In this document: in pieces, positions 13,097 through 39,676 of the stretch
How positions within the stretch are numbered: position 1 is the first letter of the stretch
Layout: each line of letters starts with the position of its first letter
Source: Bacillota bacterium
Lineage (GTDB): Bacteria > Bacillota > UBA4882 > UBA10575
Direction of reading: 5' to 3'
NCBI GenBank assembly: GCA_029782135.1
Contig: JAKOVI010000064.1
Coordinates: 1 to 64,000 of the forward strand
DNA length: 64,000 bases
Position numbers and translations under genes: made by a program
Notes under the pieces: generated by a model
Seen by the model: the letters and a program-made list of their open reading frames with translations, nothing else
Databases searched by the model: none
Told to the model about the DNA's origin: nothing

Positions 13097-14134
13097 TTAC
13101 TCCAGGGGCAGTCCTTCCTGTCTAGTCTCTTCCGGCCGGGCGTACTTTAACCCTAAATGCTCCCAGGCCAACCGGGTCGCGACCCGGCCGCGGGGCGTCC
13201 GTTGGAGATATCCGATCTGGAGGAGGAAAGGTTCACACACATCTTCAATCGTCTCCACCGCTTCCTGGGTGGCGGCGGCCAGCGTCTCCACCCCGACCGG
13301 CCCGCCGTCAAATTTCCGGATGATCGTCTCCAGCAATAAGCGGTCGACACGGTCCAGGCCTTTTTCATCGACTTCCAACATGTTTAAAGCTTCGTCGGCC
13401 ACGGCGCGCGTGATCACCCCGTCGGCTTTCACCTGGGCGTAGTCACGCACCCGTTTTAATAAACGGTTGGCAATCCGCGGCGTCCCGCGCGCCCGGCGCG
13501 CCAGGACCTCGGCGCCCTCCGGTTCAATCTCAATCTGCAAGATCCGGGCGGAACGGGTAATGATCTTCTTTAAATCCGCCCCTTCGTAAAAGTCCAGGCG
13601 GTGAATGATCCCAAAGCGATCCCGCAAGGGAGCGGATAAGGCCCCGGCGCGTGTTGTCGCCCCCACCAGCGTAAAGCGGGGGAGATCGATCCGGACGGAG
13701 CGGGCATTCGCCCCCTTCCCAATGATAATGTCAAGGACAAAGTCCTCCATTGCCGGGTACAGGATCTCCTCCACCATCCGGTTCAGGCGGTGCACCTCGT
13801 CGATGAAGAGCAGATCGTGATCCTCAAGATTGGTGAGGAGGGCCGCCAAATCACCCGGCCGTTCAATCGCCGGGCCGGAGGTGACCCTGATCTGGACGCC
13901 CAGTTCATTGGCGATAATATGGGCTAATGTAGTTTTTCCCAACCCGGGGGGTCCGTAAAGCAAGACATGATCAAGCGGCTCGCGCCGTTTCCGCGCCGCC
14001 TCAATAAAGATCCGCAGGTTCTCCTTGACCCGCTCCTGGCCGATATATTCATCAAGCGTGCGGGGGCGAATGCTTGACTCAATCTCTTGATCCTCGTCCC
14101 GCAAATGAGGGGTGACAAGCCGGTAATCATCCAT
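13097..14134 (-). CDS. ruvB: Holliday junction helicase RuvB
   Basis: RuvB is the hexameric AAA+ motor that drives branch migration with RuvA. The 345-residue protein has Walker [10 protein letters not shown] (about 59-67), Walker [10 protein letters not shown], the sensor motif [18 protein letters not shown] and a C-terminal winged-helix domain ending near LGLKYARP. Length is normal. It lies about 50 bases downstream of ruvA in the ruvC-ruvA-ruvB order. Confidence 0.97.
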
Positions 14135-14184
14135 CGCTAAACCTCTCTTCTATTCTCGCTGCGCACGGTTCTCCGCTTACGCTT

Positions 14185-14790
14185 TTATTTCCGCTCGCTC
14201 GCCAACAATTTCAACGCTTCCTTAATCAGATCTTTGAGCGCAATCTGCGGCTGTTTGCTCTCCACTTCCTGCACCGCCTTCCCGGCCGGACCCGGTGGAT
14301 ACCCCAAAGCCACTAAAGCCGCAACGGCATCCTCATTAACCCGGGCGCCCGTCTGCCGTCCACCGCGCGCCAGCGGCGTCTCCGCCACCTCTTTCCTGAT
14401 TCTCGTCTGTAACTCGAGGATTAGCCGTTGCGCCGTCTTTTGCCCGATCCCCGGGACAGTGCTCAGAAGCCTAACGTCATCATGTAAGATCGCCCGGTAG
14501 AATTCCTCCAGCGGTAACACGGAGAGGATCGTGAGAGCGGTTTTCGGCCCGATCCCGGAGACACTGATGAGATTCAGGAAAAGGGCCTTTTCTTGCTGGT
14601 TCGTAAACCCGTAAAGGACCATCGCATCTTCGCGGTGCGCGAGGTAGGTGTAGAGCGTTAACGGCTCCCCGCACCGTAGAGCGGTCAGCACCGAGGGCGG
14701 CATTAAAACTTCATAACCGACCCCGTTCACCTCCAGGATCACAGCCTCATCAGTGAGGGCGGCAATTTTCCCGGATAAAAAAGCAATCAT
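14185..14790 (-). CDS. ruvA: Holliday junction DNA-binding protein RuvA
   Basis: RuvA binds four-way junctions as a tetramer and recruits RuvB. The 201-residue protein begins MIAFLSGKIAALTDEAVIL (domain I OB fold), contains tandem helix-hairpin-helix motifs (ISVSGIGPKTALTIL and LSTVPGIGQKTAQRLILEL) and ends with the small RuvB-interacting domain III. Its ATG overlaps the stop of ruvC by four bases, so the two are translationally coupled. Confidence 0.97.
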   Translation of the reverse strand: MIAFLSGKIAALTDEAVILEVNGVGYEVLMPPSVLTALRCGEPLTLYTYLAHREDAMVLYGFTNQQEKALFLNLISVSGIGPKTALTILSVLPLEEFYRAILHDDVRLLSTVPGIGQKTAQRLILELQTRIRKEVAETPLARGGRQTGARVNEDAVAALVALGYPPGPAGKAVQEVESKQPQIALKDLIKEALKLLASERK

Positions 14791-16645: not shown

Positions 16646-17299
16646 TTACGTCTCCAGCAGTTGATCGTCCAATCCTTCATCCATAACCTGCTCATTTTCA
16701 ACGTTTTCAACCACACCGCGCGGTTCGTCGGAGTACATCTCGTCAAACCCTTCGACATTTCCCCCCAAATCCTGCGGCGACTCGGCGGTGCCGAACTGGG
16801 CCACCGCCTGCCAGGCATCCTCCCCGTCAAAGGCGTTGTTCTCCCCGTCTTCCGGCGTAAAGGTACGGGCAAACGGAACCGCCAGCAACTCTTCTTCCAC
16901 CGGGCGCTTCTGCAAGCGCGCGGCATTCTCCTCTTCGGTCCGGGTTTGGCAGGCGATACAATTGACCGCCTGGGGAAGCGCTTCCAGCCGCTCGCTTTCG
17001 ATCGGCCGTCCACAACGCATGCAGACCCCGTACTTCCCGTCCTCGATCCGCTGCAGTGCCTCTTCGAGCGCCGCAAGCCTGACCTTTTTCGCATTGCTGA
17101 GGCTCAGATCCTTTTCCCGTTCAAACGTCTCCGCCCCGAGGTCGGCCGGGTGGTTATCATAAGCGGAAAGTTCACCGACGGAAGCCGTTAAACTCTCGCC
17201 CAGGCCGAACTCCTCATCCCGTTTTAATTCTTTGCTCAAAGCGGTTATCTCTTGGCGTAACCTTTTCTCCATTTGCCGAATCGTTTTTTTGCTTAGCAT
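16646..17299 (-). CDS. yteA: YteA-family sporulation protein with DksA/TraR zinc finger
   Basis: A 217-residue relative of the YteA sporulation family. The N-terminal half is a coiled coil with the family stretch ELSAYDNHPADLGAETFEREKD (about 43-64), followed by the DksA/TraR C4 zinc finger CMRCGRPI...CIAC (about 90-115). The C-terminal half is acidic and low in complexity. DksA-type proteins act in the secondary channel of RNA polymerase; whether YteA does is not known. The ATG follows GGAGGGG. It lies upstream of nothing on its strand and its 3' end meets the M28 peptidase terminator. The DUF5665 gene is immediately upstream. Confidence 0.88.
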   Translation of the reverse strand: MLSKKTIRQMEKRLRQEITALSKELKRDEEFGLGESLTASVGELSAYDNHPADLGAETFEREKDLSLSNAKKVRLAALEEALQRIEDGKYGVCMRCGRPIESERLEALPQAVNCIACQTRTEEENAARLQKRPVEEELLAVPFARTFTPEDGENNAFDGEDAWQAVAQFGTAESPQDLGGNVEGFDEMYSDEPRGVVENVENEQVMDEGLDDQLLET

Positions 17300-17319
17300 T
17301 CAGCCCCTCCTTTTCTCCT

Positions 17320-17640
17320 TTAATAACGGGGGGGTGTCAGTTCATCATTGACCAGGCGGACAATCCGGGCGATAAAGTTACTGATCAGCGGCAGGTTTAA
17401 GCTGGCCAACCGCGCCAGGATCGAAAGGAAAAGGGCACTGATCAGCGAGAGGCCAATCGCGATCCCGAACCCCCTCGCCATCCCGGCGATAAAATTCAAG
17501 TAGACCAAACGCAGAGGTTTACTGAGTAAATCAACGAAGCCTTCGATATTGTAACGCATCAGGAGCCGGTTCAAGAGCACAATCTGGTTGTTAAACTTTC
17601 GCAGATTCTGGAGTTTCACCCTTTTTCGCCGCAGCGCCAT
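17320..17640 (-). CDS. DUF5665-type membrane protein
   Basis: A 106-residue protein with a basic N-terminus (MALRRKRVKLQ), an amphipathic region with LSKPLRLVYLNFIAGMARG, and one or two hydrophobic helices (about 55-85). The RLVYLNFIAGMARGFG stretch is the recognisable core of the DUF5665 family, common in spore-forming Firmicutes and of unknown role. It lies 20 bases upstream of yteA and is probably transcribed with it. Confidence 0.75.
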   Translation of the reverse strand: MALRRKRVKLQNLRKFNNQIVLLNRLLMRYNIEGFVDLLSKPLRLVYLNFIAGMARGFGIAIGLSLISALFLSILARLASLNLPLISNFIARIVRLVNDELTPPRY

Positions 17641-17670: not shown

Positions 17671-17774
17671 ACCCCGGAACTCTGAACGGGAAAGGATGGT
17701 TTTTTTGCAAGAAGCCCCTGAAGGTGGCGGCACCACCTCCTGCCGGGACTCCAGAGGGAAAAGAATAGTTTTTA
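17671..17774 (-). repeat. Two imperfect direct repeats around a hairpin
   Basis: Two copies of about 38 bases, at 17671-17707 and 17738-17774, share a core of GGAACTCTGAACGGGAAAGG (first copy) and GGGACTCCAGAGGGAAAAG (second copy) followed by a T run. Between them AGGTGG/CCACCT forms a hairpin (about 17731-17747). A weaker third relative overlaps the 3' end of the neighbouring SPOCS gene near 18790-18812. The block fills the space after the glycosyltransferase gene and has no coding evidence. It may be a small dispersed repeat family. Confidence 0.45.
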
Positions 17775-18773
17775 CCCCAACACCTCCTGGTACGCCTGCA
17801 GGGTCCGGCGGGCAACCTGGTCCCAGGTGTAGTTCGACAGGATATGTTCGCGCAACCCCGGGAAGGGCGGCGCCGCCAGCGCCCGGCGGAGCGCATTGCG
17901 GATCGAGTAGTGTTCGGGCGTGCAGTACCACGCCATCTCTCCTAAATATTCCCGCGTTGTCCCGCGGTCGGTGGTTACTAATTTGCAGCCGGCCAAACCC
18001 GCCTCGAGGTTCACTAAACCTGGCGTCTCGTACCAACTGGGCAGGGCATGGACGCTGCAGGCCGCATATGCAGAAGCGATCCAGGTCGGGCTGAGCGAGC
18101 CCAGGAAACGGACATTCCCTTCTCCTTCCTGCCGGCACTCCTGGTAGTAGAGATAATCATTGATCGGGCCGATCAGGACCACCTTCTGGTTGAGGCTCCG
18201 CGCCGCTTGAATTAAGGCCTTCTGGTTTTTCCGCCGGCAGATCCGGCCGACACAGAGGATAAAATCTTTCAGGCCGAAGCGCTTGACGAATTTCTCCGGG
18301 TTGGCGTAATAAAAGACCGGATCCACCCCGTTCGGAATAATCCGGTACGGGGTAATCAAATTATACTGCTCGACTAACAATTGGTGTTCAACCTGGCCGT
18401 TCGGTAATAAAAGGTCGACGCCGTCCAAGACTTCCTGCCGCATTTGGTTCGTCTTCGCCCACCAGGAAAGGAAATGGTCTTTCCTGGCCGTGTCGATATT
18501 GATCAAAAACTCGTGCGGATCCCAATAGATCGGCGACAAGACAATCGGAATCCCGTATTTTTTCGCCCGTTGGTAAAACTGGTAAGTCTCTTCAATCGGA
18601 ATGATATTGAAGAGGTGAACCAGGTCATAACCGGAAAAGTCAGTGACCGGGTGGGTCTTGATCTCGACCTTCACTCCCAGTTGGACCAACGCATCTTTCG
18701 TTTTGTGCATCTGCACGCTGTCGCCGGCCGGCATTTTCAGAACGGTCGAGCGGTTTTGCATTAAAACCCTCAC
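17772..18773 (-). CDS. GT4-type glycosyltransferase
   Basis: A 333-residue retaining glycosyltransferase with the GT-B fold of family GT4. The N-terminal half carries YDLVHLFNI, and the C-terminal half has PNGVDPVFYY, the nucleotide-binding core FILCVGRICRRKNQ and the E-x7-E-like region HALPSWYETPGLVNLEAGLAG. The donor and acceptor sugars cannot be deduced. There is no signal peptide. It lies 18 bases downstream of a SPOCS-type gene and is probably in its transcript, which suggests glycosylation of a spore-envelope component; this is an inference from position only. Confidence 0.85.
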   Translation of the reverse strand: MRVLMQNRSTVLKMPAGDSVQMHKTKDALVQLGVKVEIKTHPVTDFSGYDLVHLFNIIPIEETYQFYQRAKKYGIPIVLSPIYWDPHEFLINIDTARKDHFLSWWAKTNQMRQEVLDGVDLLLPNGQVEHQLLVEQYNLITPYRIIPNGVDPVFYYANPEKFVKRFGLKDFILCVGRICRRKNQKALIQAARSLNQKVVLIGPINDYLYYQECRQEGEGNVRFLGSLSPTWIASAYAACSVHALPSWYETPGLVNLEAGLAGCKLVTTDRGTTREYLGEMAWYCTPEHYSIRNALRRALAAPPFPGLREHILSNYTWDQVARRTLQAYQEVLG

Positions 18774-18791
18774 TTTTTCACCTCCTTCTTC

Positions 18792-20783
18792 TCAAGTCTC
18801 GAACGGAAAGGATAAGATCCGGATTGCCAGTTCGCACCAGACGCCCCCTCGCTCCCACGGCCAGTTCGGCAGCGGGCGGCATTGCCACGCGTCGAGCACC
18901 GGGATGATGATCCGGTTACGCCCAAGCGGCGCGGGAACTTTTAACCAGACCTCCTTGCTGATACGGTGAAAACGGCGGCGCCCCTCCCGGTCCAGGTAAG
19001 TAAGGAGGCCGCCGGCTTTGCCCTCCAAAAAATGGGCTCCTCCCATTTTGACCAGGCGAAAATCCTGTAAAAAAAAATGAACAGCACTGATGGTTTGCGG
19101 AAAGAACAGCAGTTTCTCTTCCCATTTACAAGAGACTGAACTTGCAGTCGCGAAAGCTTCTTTCTCCACCGCTTCCTCCGGCAAACGGACTGCTTTTAAT
19201 TCCTCTTGGCTGAGGGTCAGTTTGCCGATCAAGAGCAGTTGCAGCAGCAATTCGCCCTGGCTGTTCATTTTCAACTTCATCTGGGTGCCGTCAACTTCTG
19301 CCCGGGCCAGTACTCCTGGTTGTGCCAGCGGGCTCGGGTACACCCACTGGATTACCGGCTTGACCTCCACCATCTTGACTTGGTTCAGCTCATTCTTATA
19401 CTCCCAGGTCAGCAGGGGCTCCACTTTGAGGAAAACCGCCCCCCGCCCGGCCCGGCCCTCGACCACGCCCTCTGCCCACCGCACCTGGTGGCCGGTACGG
19501 AAATCAGGAGGTCGGGAAAGGGGAATCTCTACATAATACTCCAGTGGTTCCCGGGTAATGATCTTTTCCACCAAAATTTTGCGGGTGGGGGCGGGGGAAG
19601 CGGGAGGCGGTAAACCGGCCTCACGCCGCCGGAGCGTCGTTAAACAATAATCCAGTTCCAAATTGAGGAGGAGGTCCTTCCCCGGCGCCGGAGCCGGAAG
19701 GGGCGGATGGTCCAGGCGCAGCCCATTAACCTTCAAACGGTATTCCCGCTCCCGGGAAGCCTCGCCAATCCATTCTTCAAAAGGAAACTTCGTTTGGTAA
19801 CACTTTTCCTGACCGTCACGGCTGATATAGAAAAGGTCCAGGTCGAGAAGGCCGGCAAAGAGGAGCCCCTTGGGCCCAACCATTACCGCGCTGCGCAGTT
19901 CCCCGGTCTGCACCTGTTCAAGCAGGCGGACCGGCTCCGGAAGCTTCAGGGTTAACTCCTTCCTTAAGACCTTCTGCGTTTGCGCTTCAAGCGTGCACAG
20001 GGAGTAACGTCCGGCGTCCCCCGGCGGGGCGATCACCACCGTCAATTCTTCCTCTTTCGTCATCCGCCAGGCAATCTGCACACCGAAGAGGACCTTCCCC
20101 CCGGCTCCCCTTTTTACCATGTAAACGGAGGCTTGCCCTTCAACCTGCCGTCCGGGGGTGACCTTTTGCGGGATCAAAATCGAAAGGGGGTAACTCCGTT
20201 CCTCGCCGTCGCCCCGGTCGAGAAGGAGTTTCCCTTGAAAGTTAATCCCGTGGGGCAGAAGGAGAAATTTTTCGTCGCTGATCCGGGCTTCGAGCTTCCC
20301 CCTGGCGGCCTCCGCCGTCGGTAAAGGGAGATCGATCAGCTCGACGTGGACACCCTCCTCCACCACCACCCGCCCGCTGATCATCAACTGCTCTTCATGA
20401 TCGAAAGCCGCCGGCTGCTTTTTTTTTCGTTCCCATGCACTTAAGTGCAGATAAAATCCTTGTTCTAACAGTGAGTTCTCCCCGCGCACCACGTTGACGA
20501 GGTAATCGGGGGTAACGCTAATCTGCAACGGTTGACGGCGGATCAGCTCCGGCGGGACCGGAAACTCTTTCTCCAGACGCACCAGGTCCTTTTTGAAAAG
20601 CACTTCGCCGCCGGTCCCGAGGGCTTGGATCTCCCTTTCCAGTTCCACCGCCAGCTTGAGGGATTTTTCTTCCCAGAGGACAGAGTAATCCTTAATTGCC
20701 AAATCGATCCGGTGAACTTGCTCACCGGATGGCCAAGGGACACTGATCTTCATTTTGCAGTGCCTTTGCCACCGTTTGACCAT
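18792..20783 (-). CDS. Large protein with divergent SPOCS-like (DUF3794-like) repeats
   Basis: A 663-residue protein without a signal peptide or clear membrane segment, rich in beta-strand patterns. At least three stretches resemble SPOCS domains: around 185-260 (INFQGKLLLDRGDGEERSYPL), around 315-380 (GLLFAGLLDLDLFYISRDGQ) and around 580-640 (GGLLTYLDREGRRRFHRIS), each with a short extended strand, a turn with a charged loop and a proline-rich strand. SPOCS domains mediate binding to SpoIVA in the coat protein SipL. An internal ATG (MKISVPWPSGEQ) ten codons in is an alternative start. It lies 114 bases downstream of the three-domain SPOCS gene, behind a terminator and a possible sporulation promoter. 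Domain calls are by pattern only. Confidence 0.6.
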   Translation of the reverse strand: MVKRWQRHCKMKISVPWPSGEQVHRIDLAIKDYSVLWEEKSLKLAVELEREIQALGTGGEVLFKKDLVRLEKEFPVPPELIRRQPLQISVTPDYLVNVVRGENSLLEQGFYLHLSAWERKKKQPAAFDHEEQLMISGRVVVEEGVHVELIDLPLPTAEAARGKLEARISDEKFLLLPHGINFQGKLLLDRGDGEERSYPLSILIPQKVTPGRQVEGQASVYMVKRGAGGKVLFGVQIAWRMTKEEELTVVIAPPGDAGRYSLCTLEAQTQKVLRKELTLKLPEPVRLLEQVQTGELRSAVMVGPKGLLFAGLLDLDLFYISRDGQEKCYQTKFPFEEWIGEASREREYRLKVNGLRLDHPPLPAPAPGKDLLLNLELDYCLTTLRRREAGLPPPASPAPTRKILVEKIITREPLEYYVEIPLSRPPDFRTGHQVRWAEGVVEGRAGRGAVFLKVEPLLTWEYKNELNQVKMVEVKPVIQWVYPSPLAQPGVLARAEVDGTQMKLKMNSQGELLLQLLLIGKLTLSQEELKAVRLPEEAVEKEAFATASSVSCKWEEKLLFFPQTISAVHFFLQDFRLVKMGGAHFLEGKAGGLLTYLDREGRRRFHRISKEVWLKVPAPLGRNRIIIPVLDAWQCRPLPNWPWERGGVWCELAIRILSFPFET

Positions 20784-20820
20784 TAAGCCTGTCCCTCCCC
20801 CTAAACCTCCTCACTCTTAA

Positions 20821-20829
20821 ATGTATATG
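20821..20829 (-). promoter_or_regulatory. Possible sporulation -10 element upstream of the 663-residue SPOCS-like gene
   Basis: The minus strand reads CATATACAT, similar to the CATA-type -10 of sigma-E and sigma-K promoters and to the elements found before two neighbouring genes. The expected -35 region runs into the T stretch of the previous terminator and is not convincing. Confidence 0.3.
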
Positions 20830-20841
20830 TCGGGTCCTAGT

Positions 20842-20881
20842 AAAAAAAATACAGGCCTTTACGACTTTTAAAGGCCTGTAT
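20842..20881 (-). terminator. Terminator of the three-domain SPOCS gene
   Basis: TACAGGCCTTT pairs with AAAGGCCTGTA (20850-20860 with 20870-20880), followed on the minus strand by TTTTTTTT. It lies 17 bases after the stop. Confidence 0.9.
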
Positions 20882-20897
20882 TCCGGGGGAGAGTCAT

Positions 20898-22163
20898 CTA
20901 GAAGTAGTAGGGACCATAGGGAGCGGCAATTTGTACCTGGAGCTGCTGCGACTCGGTCACTTTCACGAACAGCTCAAGGACGACTTTTTGCCGGAGGGTA
21001 ACGCTGTCCAACAGCTCAAAGAGCACCGTTTCGATGATCGGTTTGATGCGTACATCCATGCCCTGAACGGCACCTGGAATATCGACAAACGTGCTGAATG
21101 GGAAGTCCTCGCTCTGGTGAATCTCCAGGTTATCCTCATTGATAAAGAAGATCTGTTTGTGCACAATTCCTTGGATAATGACTTTATCCTCGATTACTTC
21201 GGCCATTAACCGTTCAACGCGCGCGACAATTTCCCTGATCTTAATGGCCGGTTGTGAAAGGGTGACGGTATTTTCGACCAGTAACTGCTTGGTATCTTCG
21301 CCGACCACGGTATCAAGTTTCAGCAACGCGCCGGGTCCTAGGGCAACGTTGATCTGAATGCTCTCGGTTACTTTGACAAAGAATTCAACGACCACTTTTT
21401 GGAGTAAGGTATTCTCATCCAGCAGTTCAAAGTGGATAAACTCGATCAACGGTTCAACGACCACATCCATGCCTGCCGTAGCGCCGGGTACATCCAGGAA
21501 TGTACTGAATTCAACGTCTTCCCCTTGGTGATATTCAATATTGTCCAAGCCGATGAAGAAAATTTGCTTGTGGATCACGCCCTGGATGACCACTTTATCT
21601 TCGATCACTTCAATGTTGAGGTCGCGGATTTCCGCCGTGACGTCGTCGATCTTCAGCGCCGGTACATTGAGCGTCACCGTATTCTCGATTAACTCTTGTT
21701 TCGTTCCTTCGCCAATCACCTGATCCAACCGGACCAGCGGCCCGGTGCCTTCAACAAGATTAAGCTGGTTCGACTCTGTAATCTTGACAAAGAATTCTAC
21801 GACCACTTTTTGGTGGAGTAAAGTCGGGTTGATTAACGTGAAGAGAATCGTTTCGATGACCGGATGGACCTGGACATTCATCCCCGGTTCGGCGCCAAAG
21901 ATATCAATGAATGTGCTGAAGGGGACATCTTCGGCCTGGTGATGGACGACATTATCCTCACCGACAAAGAAGATCTGTTTGTGGAGCAGACCCTGGATAA
22001 TCACTTTATCCTGGATTAATTCTGTGGTTAAATTCCGTACTTCCGCCGTGATATTCCGGATTTTAATCGCCCGCCGTACCAGGGTGACATTCGTTTCGAT
22101 CAATAGTTGTTTCGTACCTTCACCAATAACCACCTCGGCCCGCACCAATGAATCCATTAACAT
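20898..22163 (-). CDS. Three-domain SPOCS (DUF3794) protein
   Basis: A 421-residue protein made almost entirely of three SPOCS repeats of about 125 residues each. Each repeat begins near V(I/V)GE-TKQ-L(I/V)E-TVTL, passes through IKIR-I-AEVRNL and DKVIIQG--HKQIFF, then PFSTF-DIPGA-PGM, and ends with QKVV-EFFVKVTES. The N-terminus is MLMDSLVRAEVV; the frame is open further upstream but GGAAGGAGGAG lies directly before the ATG at 22163 (a second ATG two codons on is equally possible). SPOCS is the SpoIVA-binding domain of SipL, so a spore-coat or exosporium scaffold is likely. No LysM domain is present, unlike SipL. A terminator follows; the membrane-protein gene lies 74 bases upstream. Confidence 0.9.
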   Translation of the reverse strand: MLMDSLVRAEVVIGEGTKQLLIETNVTLVRRAIKIRNITAEVRNLTTELIQDKVIIQGLLHKQIFFVGEDNVVHHQAEDVPFSTFIDIFGAEPGMNVQVHPVIETILFTLINPTLLHQKVVVEFFVKITESNQLNLVEGTGPLVRLDQVIGEGTKQELIENTVTLNVPALKIDDVTAEIRDLNIEVIEDKVVIQGVIHKQIFFIGLDNIEYHQGEDVEFSTFLDVPGATAGMDVVVEPLIEFIHFELLDENTLLQKVVVEFFVKVTESIQINVALGPGALLKLDTVVGEDTKQLLVENTVTLSQPAIKIREIVARVERLMAEVIEDKVIIQGIVHKQIFFINEDNLEIHQSEDFPFSTFVDIPGAVQGMDVRIKPIIETVLFELLDSVTLRQKVVLELFVKVTESQQLQVQIAAPYGPYYF

Positions 22164-22237
22164 ATCTCCTCCTTCCCTAAATTCTACAGGAGCTGCTGCC
22201 AGAGGGCTAAGTTCTCTGCAGGGGTGAACAGTGGCGA

Positions 22238-22828
22238 CTACTCCCGGGAGGTTTTTTTTTTGCCGTCTGCGAAAGCTTCCAGTTCTCCGCGCCAACCTGT
22301 CTCCGGGGGCGTGGCGGTTACTCCCATCCCAACCAACTCGCCCGCGGGTTGTTGCGGTTCTTCAGCCGCAAGATCAGCCAAATCTGCCGTAACATTAGCC
22401 GCAACATCAGACAGATCAACCGCAACAACAGTCGGGCGCGTTTCGAACCGGCTTTCCCCTTCCGCCATCCCGCCTGCCACCGGTGTGCGGCGCTCCTCCG
22501 GAAGCGCCTGATCCGGCAGGCCGGCGTTATCCACTGTTGCTGTCAGCACGAAACTTGCCACTTCTTCCGGTAAAGGCTGCTTTTCTCCTCCGGACGGCGT
22601 TTGGTCATCCCCAAAGCCAGTAGTAAGATTAAGCTCTTTCCCCCGGTCATCTTCACTTCTAAAAATATGCCTGTTTACCGGAACGTTGGACTGCGCTTCG
22701 CCTGGGCCGGCCAGGTCGGAATCATCAGTCAAAACCAGATAGCGGTGGTGAAAGCGGAAAAGCCATACTGTGCAGAGAGTGATTAGGGCAATGATCATGG
22801 CAAAGGCTCCGATCACAATCAGTTCCAT
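22238..22828 (-). CDS. Single-helix membrane protein with acidic disordered tail
   Basis: A 196-residue protein with one N-terminal hydrophobic segment (MELIVIGAFAMIIALITLCT, continuing VWLF) followed by a basic turn (RFHHRY) and a long acidic tail rich in Ala, Glu, Gly, Pro and Thr. The tail contains AANVTADLADLAAEE and no recognisable domain. The ATG at 22828 follows GAGGTGCGAGCC. It lies between two SPOCS genes, with a sigma-K-like promoter upstream and no terminator before the three-domain SPOCS gene, so both are probably transcribed together. I do not recognise the family; a membrane tether for coat proteins is only a guess. Confidence 0.7.
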   Translation of the reverse strand: MELIVIGAFAMIIALITLCTVWLFRFHHRYLVLTDDSDLAGPGEAQSNVPVNRHIFRSEDDRGKELNLTTGFGDDQTPSGGEKQPLPEEVASFVLTATVDNAGLPDQALPEERRTPVAGGMAEGESRFETRPTVVAVDLSDVAANVTADLADLAAEEPQQPAGELVGMGVTATPPETGWRGELEAFADGKKKTSRE

Positions 22829-22875
22829 GGCTCGCACCTCTTCCCCCAGATTACCTGCCCTTCGGTTTGCTAATA

Positions 22876-22902
22876 TAATATATGAACTACGCACTGATTG
22901 TG
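22876..22902 (-). promoter_or_regulatory. Sigma-K-like promoter before the membrane protein gene
   Basis: On the minus strand CAC (22902-22900) is followed after 15 bases by CATATATTA (22884-22876), matching the CATA-nnn-TA -10 of sigma-K. The same CAC-N15-CATATA arrangement precedes the four-domain SPOCS gene at 25582-25610. Confidence 0.55.
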
Positions 22903-22943
22903 CTCATCTCTCACCTTCCGGAAGAAGATTATTTATCATGGCC

Positions 22944-22975
22944 AAAAGAAAATGGACCGGTTAGCGGTCCATTTT
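22944..22975 (-). terminator. Terminator of the four-domain SPOCS gene
   Basis: AAAATGGACCG pairs with CGGTCCATTTT (22949-22959 with 22965-22975), followed on the minus strand by CTTTTGG. The stem is strong; the T run is modest. Confidence 0.75.
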
Positions 22976-22989
22976 CCAACACTCTCCGG

Positions 22990-25497
22990 TTAGCGGCGTA
23001 ACGCGGCCAGTGGTGTGACGGCAAAAATAACATCCGTGACGACTTCGATTGGTACCGGGTTGGGATTCCCGTCATTGACGACATCCAGGAGGACAACCTC
23101 TTTGATCACCCGCTCGATCCCCGGTCCGGATACCTCGGTCACGACGAAGAATTCCCGTACTTCAACGCCGGTCGGGGTCTGGATCGGAGCACGGACGAGC
23201 ACCCGCTCGGTCGTAATCCCCGGCCCGGTGACCTCCGTGACCACCTGGAAGGGAGGCGGCGCTGGCGTTTCCGCGGTTACTTCGGCATTAAGGACAATGA
23301 CCTGCCGGAGCAGGAGGCCGTTGGGTGAAAGCTTAAAGGAGATATTCTCGATCTCCACCGACACGGTGAACGGCGAATCCGGTGTAATCCCCGGGACATT
23401 AACCAGAATCGAGAAGGGGATCCGCTCCGTAACCGAACGCACCATATTCTCTTCGTCAACAAACGTTACCTGTTTAATGATCAAGCCTTCAATCAAGACC
23501 GCATCATCGAAGATGACCCGGGCTCTCAGATCGGTGATTGTCCCCTGGACCTCTTTAATCTTGATCGCCTTGACAGGGAGTTCAACCACATTCTCGACGA
23601 TGATCTGTTGACGGCCGGTGATGATCCCCGCCGGCGGAAACACCACTTCAACCACGACATTGCGGACCGGAGGAACCGGGACCTCCTCCCGCCGTTCAAC
23701 CAGGATCTGCCGGACACCTTCCCCGACAACCCGCTCCAGTTTAAATAAGGAAAAATCTCCGGTCACGAGCGGGATCTGGATGCTCTCGGTGACGACCACA
23801 TTGACGAAGACTATTACTTTCTGGCGGAGGGTCCTCTCATCTTCCAGGTTGAAGAGGACCGTTTCGATCAGTGGCTTGACATGTACATTCAAGCCGGGAG
23901 CGGCACCCGGGATATCGATAAATAAACTGAAGTTAAGGTCTTCACCTTGGTGGTATTCGATATTGTCCGTCCCGATGTAGAAGATCTGTTTATGGATGAT
24001 CCCCTGGACGATGACTTTGTCCGGAATCACCTGGGCTGTAATATTCCGGAGCGTCCCGACGATCTCGCGCACCTTGAGCGCCGGGCGATCTAAGACCAGC
24101 TCCGATTCGTTCAAGATCTGCTTCTGCCCCTCGCCGATCACCTGTTGGACCTTGTACAGCTCGCCCTGGCCGATCGTTACCTGCTCCTGCACCGCCTCGG
24201 TCGCTTTGACAAAAACCTCAATGACGACTTTTTGCCGTAGTTCCGTCGGGGAGAGCAGTTCGAAGAAGATGCCTTCAATCCGCGGGTGGACCTGCAAATC
24301 GACGCCGGGGACAACCCCTGGAATATCCAGAAAGAGACTGAAAGGAACTACTTCGGCTTGGTGGCGGGAGCGTCCATCAAGGTCAACAAAGAAGATCTGT
24401 TTATGGATAATTCCCTGCACGACGACCTTATCCGGAATTATATCGGTTTCGATCGCCCGCAGTTCACCCCGGATCTCTTCCACTTTTAAAGCCGGGGTGT
24501 TCAGCGTCACAGTTGTCTCCACCAGTTCCTGCTTCGTCCCTTCGCCAATCACCCGCGGCAGGAGCAGCAGGGGACCGCTGCCAAGCTCCAGGCTGACCTG
24601 GACAAACTCTGTTACCTTTACAAAGACCTCGAGAATAATCTTTTGGATGATGGTTGAACCGTCCGCCGAAAGATGGTGAAGAATTTTCTCGATCCGTGTA
24701 TTGACCTGGACATTCATCCCCGGCTCCGCACCCGGGAGATCAATAAAGGTACTGAACGGTACATCCTCGGAAAAATGCCGGACAATACCGTCAACCGCGA
24801 CAAAAAAGACCTGTTTATGCACGATTCCTTGGACGATTACCTTGTCTTTGATGATCTCCGCCGTGACGTTCCGCACTTCACCCACGATATTCCGGACTTT
24901 AATCGCCGGAACCGGGAGTTGTGTGGCCCTGACCACCGGGCTGACCCGTGTTCTGGCCTCGCCCACCTTTATCTCGGCGCCCGTGAACTGTTGGCGCACA
25001 TCCGGCTCCGTTGCGACCGACTCACCCGGTCCGTTGTTCACCTGGATCTTCATCACGGACGGGTTAAATTCATCTTGCCCGGTCGCACCGGTAGAATTGT
25101 CGACCACTTTAACCTGAACCCTGTCCGGGAGCACAATCTTCTTCTCCGTCTCCGTTTCCGGGGTGAAATCGGTTGTTGAATGCTTGCTTGAAACAGTTTT
25201 CTGCTCCCAAGCAGGTGGATCAACCGCAGTTTCCGCTTCTGCCACCGGGGCGTCTTTTCCCTCCGGAGCCGGCCCGGCAGCCTCTTCGAAAGCGGTCTGT
25301 TGCTTTTCTTCGGCACTTTCCTCGCTATCTGTTTCTTGCTTTTTTGCTTCGCTAGACTTCACCGGCGTTGTTTCCTTCTCTTCTGCCTCTTCCACCACCA
25401 TTTCCCCTGTTGCCTCAGGATCCACCGTAACCCGCTTTTCCGTTTCTTCCTTACCGACTACTTCTTTCTCCGCTTCCAGGTTCGGATCATATTCCAT
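22990..25497 (-). CDS. Four-domain SPOCS (DUF3794) protein with acidic N-terminal tail
   Basis: An 835-residue protein. Residues 1 to about 190 are strongly acidic and low in complexity (many Glu, Lys, Ala and Val). Four SPOCS repeats follow, three of them close to consensus with IVHKQVFF, IIHKQIFF and IIHKQIFY cores and PFSTF/PFSLF strands, and a fourth divergent one (LIIKQVTF, PFSILVNVPG). The last 100 residues hold extra valine-rich strands without the core. The ATG at 25497 has AAAGGAGG ten bases upstream; the frame is open for 61 further codons that look non-coding. A sigma-K-like promoter and a terminator enclose the gene. SPOCS points to spore-envelope assembly; the exact partner is unknown. 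Confidence 0.88.
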   Translation of the reverse strand: MEYDPNLEAEKEVVGKEETEKRVTVDPEATGEMVVEEAEEKETTPVKSSEAKKQETDSEESAEEKQQTAFEEAAGPAPEGKDAPVAEAETAVDPPAWEQKTVSSKHSTTDFTPETETEKKIVLPDRVQVKVVDNSTGATGQDEFNPSVMKIQVNNGPGESVATEPDVRQQFTGAEIKVGEARTRVSPVVRATQLPVPAIKVRNIVGEVRNVTAEIIKDKVIVQGIVHKQVFFVAVDGIVRHFSEDVPFSTFIDLPGAEPGMNVQVNTRIEKILHHLSADGSTIIQKIILEVFVKVTEFVQVSLELGSGPLLLLPRVIGEGTKQELVETTVTLNTPALKVEEIRGELRAIETDIIPDKVVVQGIIHKQIFFVDLDGRSRHQAEVVPFSLFLDIPGVVPGVDLQVHPRIEGIFFELLSPTELRQKVVIEVFVKATEAVQEQVTIGQGELYKVQQVIGEGQKQILNESELVLDRPALKVREIVGTLRNITAQVIPDKVIVQGIIHKQIFYIGTDNIEYHQGEDLNFSLFIDIPGAAPGLNVHVKPLIETVLFNLEDERTLRQKVIVFVNVVVTESIQIPLVTGDFSLFKLERVVGEGVRQILVERREEVPVPPVRNVVVEVVFPPAGIITGRQQIIVENVVELPVKAIKIKEVQGTITDLRARVIFDDAVLIEGLIIKQVTFVDEENMVRSVTERIPFSILVNVPGITPDSPFTVSVEIENISFKLSPNGLLLRQVIVLNAEVTAETPAPPPFQVVTEVTGPGITTERVLVRAPIQTPTGVEVREFFVVTEVSGPGIERVIKEVVLLDVVNDGNPNPVPIEVVTDVIFAVTPLAALRR

Positions 25498-25581
25498 GAA
25501 GCCATTACCTCCTTTCTCCGACCAAATCCCATTCGAAAATGGGAGATAACCGCACCAGTCCTGAATCAGATTAAGGACTAG

Positions 25582-25610
25582 TACAGTATATGCTGGTCCC
25601 GAAAAAGGTG
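25582..25610 (-). promoter_or_regulatory. Sigma-K/E-like promoter before the four-domain SPOCS gene
   Basis: CAC (25610-25608), 15 bases, then CATATACTGTA (25592-25582) on the minus strand. The -10 is one base off the sigma-K form and also fits sigma-E. The spacing is identical to the element at 22876-22902. Confidence 0.5.
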
Positions 25611-25642
25611 CTTCCGGTCCGGCGAAAAAAGGGAACAAGCTC

Positions 25643-38811: not shown

Positions 38812-38837
38812 AAAAAAAACCGGCAGCGCCGGTTTTT
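38812..38837 (-). terminator. Terminator of cotJABC
   Basis: AAAAACCGGC-GCT-GCCGGTTTTTTTT on the minus strand; it overlaps the cotJC stop codon by two bases. Confidence 0.88.
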
Positions 38838-39408
38838 AAAAGTATTTTTTGGTATCCAGATATTCCTGGACGATCTGGAGCGTCTCCCCGAACCGTTGGA
38901 AGTGGACGATCTCCCGTTCCCGTAGAAACTTAAGCGTATCGTTTAAATCGGGATCGTCGGACAGGTCGATGAGCCAGTCGTAGGTCGCCCGCGCCTTTTC
39001 CTCCGCCGCCATATCCTCATGGAGATCGGCAACCGGGTCGCCTTTGGCCATAATGTAGGTAGCTGTCCAGGGTACACCGCTGCCGTTCACGTAATAAACG
39101 GCTTTATCATGGTCGGCATAATAACCGCCAAGGTCGACCTGTTTAAGCTCCTCCACGGAGGCGCCGTCCATTAATTTATATACTAAAGTAGCGATGATTT
39201 CGAGGTGGGCCAGTTCTTCCGTCCCGATATCCGTTAAAATCCCTTTAGCTTGGGGAGTAGGCATCGTATAACGTTGGGTCAGGTAACGCAGCGCCGCCGA
39301 CAGTTCTCCATCCGGCCCGCCGTACTGGGTGATCAAATATTTCGCCATTTTCACATTTGCCCTGCCGACCTTCGCCGGATATTGCAACTTCTTCTCATAT
39401 ATCCACAT
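38836..39408 (-). CDS. cotJC: Spore coat protein CotJC, manganese catalase family
   Basis: CotJC belongs to the dimanganese catalase family and lies in the spore coat. The 190-residue protein begins MWIYEKKLQYPAKV and keeps the ferritin-like helices with the metal ligands (ELSAALRYLTQRY, GTEELAHLEIIATLVY, AAEEKARATYDWL, EIVHFQRF). The ATG at 39408 has AGGAGG nine bases upstream. It is 13 bases downstream of cotJB. Retained Glu and His ligands suggest catalase activity may persist. Confidence 0.95.
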   Translation of the reverse strand: MWIYEKKLQYPAKVGRANVKMAKYLITQYGGPDGELSAALRYLTQRYTMPTPQAKGILTDIGTEELAHLEIIATLVYKLMDGASVEELKQVDLGGYYADHDKAVYYVNGSGVPWTATYIMAKGDPVADLHEDMAAEEKARATYDWLIDLSDDPDLNDTLKFLREREIVHFQRFGETLQIVQEYLDTKKYF

Positions 39409-39421
39409 TCCGCCATACCTC

Positions 39422-39676
39422 CTATTCGTAACAGATTTCCCACGGCCACGGCTCATTAATCCATTGCCAGGGATAAGCGCTGGGTTCTCCCCAAGTGAGC
39501 GGGCCATAGCGTTGCTGGTACTGCTGCTTTAAAACTTCCAACTGATGCACCATCGAATTGTATTCCATTAATGCCTTTTGGTCCGTCGGATGCGTATCAA
39601 GGTAAAGATGCAGTTCCAAGACCGTGAACTGGACGGCCATCAATTCTTTGAGCATATTCAGCTGTTCCCTGTTCAT
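39422..39676 (-). CDS. cotJB: Spore coat protein CotJB
   Basis: An 84-residue coat protein of the CotJB family. After a helical N-terminus (MNREQLNMLKELMAVQF) comes the conserved LYLDTHPTDQKALMEYN and a Trp/Tyr/Pro-rich C-terminus (PWQWINEPWPWEICYE). The ATG at 39676 follows GGAGGCAGGGAGG. It overlaps no neighbour; cotJA ends 15 bases upstream. Confidence 0.93.
   Translation of the reverse strand: MNREQLNMLKELMAVQFTVLELHLYLDTHPTDQKALMEYNSMVHQLEVLKQQYQQRYGPLTWGEPSAYPWQWINEPWPWEICYE

Follow-up and report, generated by a model that had tools for sequence, protein, structure and literature searches.

The window, the whole 64,000-nucleotide stretch of Bacillota DNA that was analysed, contains three adjoining genes encoding multi-SPOCS proteins (P1, P2 and P3), together with a frame encoding one membrane helix and a linker (the TM-linker frame) and a glycosyltransferase gene, all on one strand, as originally predicted, namely the minus strand. 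P1 (22990..25497; 835 aa) comprises a charged, disordered N-terminus, four SPOCS repeats and a conserved C-terminal segment (VVTxVTGPGI...LDVVNDGNPNPVPIEVVTDV), and most likely starts at the ATG at 25497, which was chosen by its Shine-Dalgarno site. P2 (20898..22163; 421 aa) carries three SPOCS repeats and most likely starts at the ATG at 22163. Both lie far above the Pfam gathering cut-off of 23.6 bits for PF12673 (SipL, SPOCS domain), P1 at 174 bits (E=7.9e-52; four stretches) and P2 at 144 bits (E=1.9e-42; three repeats), and a search of the whole genome with this profile returned the same seven places in P1 and P2, and five elsewhere. Pfam profile searches found no LysM match in P1, P2 or P3, so the claim that SPOCS is repeated here without LysM holds; no signal peptide was seen on these proteins, phmmer against PDB sequences returned nothing convincing, and an Rfam search gave no match. 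The long acidic tail attributed to one of the proteins corresponds to an acidic stretch in P1, but this lies at the N-terminus, and its charge is not conserved, relatives being Lys-rich or lacking the stretch.

P3 (18792..20783; 663 aa) evolves fast, with 14-21% identity outside its family, and itself matches nothing in Pfam, PF12673 included, such that the DUF3794 match expected of all three proteins is direct for P1 and P2 and depends on profile and fold comparison for P3. Three of 15 P3 relatives do match PF12673 (best 9e-5), and the P3 family profile aligns with that of P2 over 357 columns (E=7e-7). When its five divergent, SPOCS-like domains were each compared with the SPOCS profile using hhalign, P for D1 to D5 was 1.2e-3, 0.24, 2.4e-6, 2.3e-4 and 2e-4, against 0.3-0.8 in shuffled-column controls; these alignments are nearly full length, and D2, which is not significant, resembles SPOCS by topology only. 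AlphaFold2 models P3 as five domains, each with six long strands (pLDDT 84), like the three six-stranded domains modelled for P2 (pLDDT 81), with domain orientations that are not reliable in either (pTM 0.34 and 0.53 in the two models). Foldseek searches of both models against the PDB found no relative (TM-scores ~0.1).

The predicted glycosyltransferase (17772..18773) is of the GT4 family (PF00534, E=3.7e-17), and starts 18 nt past the P3 stop. Its orthologs are 43-82% identical and lie just 3' of P3 across the class, with others at that position or next to it in loci L081-L083, L096 and L106, and an extra GT2 in L081-L083 (tested in L083). Downstream of GT4, a yteA-family DksA-like regulator and a DUF5665 protein (window 16646-17640) are kept within the family. 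The original prediction had proposed a search for the same gene order in other genomes, and among 61 loci from such genomes the P1-P2-P3-GT4 order recurs whole or in parts, as P1-(TM)P2-P3-GT4 throughout the class and more variably outside it. The P1 ortholog is the first gene of the cluster across and beyond the class, and P2 is highly conserved over the same range, with 57-96% identity by alignment. In Halanaerobiales, a small, conserved opposite-strand gene of no family (133-146 aa) sits between SPOCS genes in L092 (11293-11718), and likewise in L084, L093, L094 and L095.

The single-helix membrane protein that was thought to be interleaved with the SPOCS genes proves to be the N-terminus of P2. 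The TM-linker frame (22238..22828) encodes one membrane helix followed by basic residues and an acidic, disordered linker, and in most family relatives, as well as in L069, L080, L092, L095, L096, L104, L106 and L108, it is fused in frame with P2 into a single open TM-linker-SPOCSx3 frame. This fusion is not universal, as TM and P2 are adjoining separate genes in the family represented by L070-L077. By the positive-inside rule, the basic residues after the helix would place the SPOCS repeats in the cytosol. At the 5' boundary of P2 lie an internal ribosome-binding site and start (AAGGAGGAGATATG; 22161..22174), and across several orders AAGGAGG or a close variant likewise precedes an in-frame start just 5' of the SPOCS part, within the long frame (a TTG start in L080); L084 and L093 have the TM extension and no detected internal site. 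P2 thus appears, from its coding sequence, to be made in both free and membrane-tethered forms.

Between the TM-linker and P2 frames lies an A10 run (22252..22261), a candidate transcriptional slippage site. A run of A9-A10 occurs 97-108 nt 5' of the P2 start in 11/11 distinct genomes of the clade, which span four genera. The TM frame continues into P2 in seven of these, and is shifted at the run in the remaining four (the window, L058, L060 and L086). In each of these four the TM frame stays open as far as the run, the P2 frame is already open ahead of it, and a changed number of A residues would join the two. Programmed slippage is expected to leave a conserved run of at least nine A or T residues and a frame change that maps to it, and these were found in all 11 genomes and in four, respectively. 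The balance between tethered and free P2 is perhaps set by transcriptional slippage, for which a precedent is tssM of Citrobacter rodentium, where slippage at an A11 run was tested experimentally and yields two length variants (PMC4256274). There, too, a poly-A run lies just 5' of a stop and the variants are of a membrane-linked protein, although the system is another one and slippage in the present cluster is what we infer. We give even weight to the alternative that the shifted frames have no programmed function, reflecting errors of sequencing or assembly or else replication-slippage (phase) variation, and that only the fused or only the separate forms matter: homopolymers mutate easily, all genomes with the run are metagenome-assembled, and the L070-L077 family manages with separate TM and P2 genes. 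Against this, the run itself holds a constant place in the 11 genomes while the flanking sequence diverges, and A/T runs of at least nine, nine being the length at which bacteria usually show selection against slippage (PMC1088944), are rare in the family loci (15 in 203 kb, of which ~11 are the A-run site and a run in P3). Lysine codons AAA and AAG are moreover about equally used (168:143). The run in P3, T9 on the coding strand (plus strand 19069-19077), is T8-T9 in 7/8 P3 genes of the family and encodes a conserved Phe-Phe-Leu with the reading frame intact; both a second slippage site and codon constraint were considered for it.

Promoter-like sites precede P1 (GCACC...CATATACTGTA; 25582..25611) and TM-P2 (GCACAA...CATATATTATA; 22874..22903), and share the pattern AGCAC-N15-CATATA-N-T-N-TA, the motif parts of which are invariant in 29 sites from 16 loci while spacer and flanks vary. 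CATANNNT is rare upstream of nearby control genes, and the strict pattern occurs genome-wide only at the two cluster sites, never reversed, so no regulon can be read from it. Regions upstream of sipL, the cotJC-like and bclA-like genes and the single-SPOCS genes hold no clear copy of the pattern; CATA matches 5' of the DUF5665 gene were discarded because they lie within GT4 coding sequence. A third promoter-like site, for P3-GT4, has its CATATA at 20824..20829 behind a terminator-like hairpin, and this hexamer is kept between P2 and P3 within the family and occurs in other families of the class as well. The cluster is not one simple operon: terminator-like hairpins lie behind both P1 and P2, and each of P1, TM-P2 and P3-GT4 has a promoter-like site of its own. 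The consensus for sigma-K combines an AC-containing -35 with a CATA-N3-TA -10 (PMC517825, PMC5749712), with boxes of 5 and 10 nt set 15+-1 apart in Bacillus subtilis (PMC517825). The TM-P2 -10 (CATA-N3-TA) fits this consensus fully, P1 has TG for TA, and the -35/-10 gap is 1-2 nt short of the B. subtilis optimum; we call these putative promoters sigma-K-like. Where the P1 mRNA is expected to begin, RNAalifold predicts a conserved hairpin (25552..25583) in which five of ten pairs show changes on both sides among 14 sequences, with a weak covariation term, and which is perhaps an mRNA stabiliser.

Its genomic context links the cluster to sporulation. SpoIVA is present in 16/16 genomes that carry the cluster or part of it and were picked across distant lineages, and among 61 relatives it occurs in 42 of 44 SPOCS-positive genomes (the two exceptions are fragmented metagenome-assembled genomes, MAGs) versus 12 of 17 SPOCS-negative ones, a co-occurrence which is confounded by phylogeny and so constitutes support, not proof. 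The source genome, whose closest organisms are uncultured MAGs, contains SpoIVA, sigma-K over its cut-off, three single-SPOCS genes, and a SPOCS+LysM protein (L119 5062-6675), which by its domains is probably the SipL of this organism. The cluster would then add to SipL and not replace it. One of the three single-SPOCS genes, on another contig of this genome (C1), is followed on the same strand by a Collagen+BclA_C protein and a GT4 (L122 539-3755), probably an exosporium-nap locus. Within the window itself, a manganese-catalase-like gene with small CotJB-like ORFs 5' of it (38836-39507) marks a probable cotJ spore-coat operon. In Halanaerobiales, multi-SPOCS genes adjoin SPOCS+LysM genes. A GvpL/F-type gas-vesicle gene also lies inside the multi-SPOCS clusters of this order (L084 7229-8026, L094 14355-15152), and is seen in Ca. 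Frackibacter and Fuchsiella (PF06386 tested in L084); gas vesicles are a known trait of spore formers of the order, such as Sporohalobacter and Orenia (PMC4187190). Directly 3' of two SPOCS genes, L110 has a LysM+CAP protein (13504-14343) that matches spore_YkwD (TIGR02909) over its cut-off, and similar genes occur in L105, L109, L111 and L116.

The most reasonable reading of multi-SPOCS proteins without LysM is that they form a multivalent scaffold. With fair confidence we propose that the cluster encodes a scaffold of an outer spore layer, either coat or exosporium-basal, which the mother cell would produce late in sporulation. The tandem SPOCS beta-domains of P1, P2 and P3 would serve as multivalent beads, assembling among themselves as well as with further SPOCS proteins. 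The internal start would yield P2 in free form, and TM-linker-SPOCSx3 would be held by its one helix in a membrane of mother-cell origin, most probably the outer membrane of the forespore, its repeats facing the mother-cell cytosol. In the source genus, the tethered form would require slippage at the A10 run. GT4, if co-transcribed, may glycosylate a protein of the layer. Underlying this proposal are the SPOCS content and the P1-P2-P3-GT4 order, co-occurrence with SpoIVA, the sigma-K, SipL and BclA-like locus of the source genome, SPOCS+LysM and spore_YkwD neighbours, the recovery of CsxC described below, the sigma-K-like promoters, and the TM fusion with its internal start.

CsxC was identified in the exosporium of Clostridium sporogenes (PMC4942563), and raises the prospect that P1-P3 are, like it, building material and not a morphogenetic scaffold: they would be the principal subunits from which an exosporium or spore appendages are constructed, and GT4 would decorate them. 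A SPOCS profile built from the present repeats recovers CsxC-family proteins in 11 of 12 loci, in a database so small that the E-values flatter, and CsxC_fam (NF045794) weakly matches 13 of 17 P2 orthologs. The direct coupling of GT4 to P3, and the BclA-like gene that adjoins a SPOCS gene elsewhere in the genome, would suit such subunits. Yet P1 and P2 score 31 and 25 bits against NF045794, far under its curated cut-off of 135 bits; their length and many repeats set P1-P3 apart from the ~270-aa, Cys-rich CsxC, and a tethered form fits morphogenesis better than bulk material, which makes this explanation rather unlikely. That P1-P3 are instead SpoIVA-binding adaptors, SipL paralogs that lack LysM, appears improbable: they share the SPOCS domain with SipL, which has three copies of it (PMC6436350), and SPOCS+LysM proteins adjoin the halanaerobial clusters, but the part of C. 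difficile SipL that binds SpoIVA is missing from them, and a LysM-bearing SipL is already encoded in the same genome. A role in the vegetative cell envelope, to which housekeeping neighbours (ruvCAB, mutSL) might point, is highly improbable given the lack of visible signal peptides on P1-P3, the sigma-K-like promoters, the co-occurrence with SpoIVA and the known biology of SPOCS proteins.

Nucleation of coat and exosporium is poorly known outside Bacillus. This conserved SPOCS cluster, free of LysM and equipped with a membrane anchor of its own, is a concrete candidate for a basement layer that deep-branching spore formers would use in place of, or in addition to, the known one. The nested start and A-run predict two or three protein products from one gene, and the optional membrane anchor points to a little-studied mode of building the spore shell.

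The SPOCS family takes its name from SpoVID and CotE. These Bacillus proteins are likened to the present ones by description, as SPOCS proteins of a coat scaffold, and we know of no tandem SPOCS array in either. The SPOCS domain of SpoVID binds CotE and SafA (PMC10867305). Although the original prediction described SipL as a protein in which one SPOCS copy binds SpoIVA, C. difficile SipL is reported to carry three DUF3794 domains and a LysM domain, the latter being the part that binds SpoIVA (PMC6436350), and repetition of SPOCS is thus not in itself new. Tandem repeats, and an expected role in mother-cell spore morphogenesis, are common to SipL and the cluster; the latter differs in lacking LysM, in its four, three and five repeats across three linked genes, and in its TM-fused form. 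The appendage cluster of C. taeniosporum (P29a/b, GP85) is likewise composed of linked repeat-protein genes, builds an outer spore structure and includes a glycoprotein, whereas its reported domains are DUF11 and collagen-like (PMC5749712).
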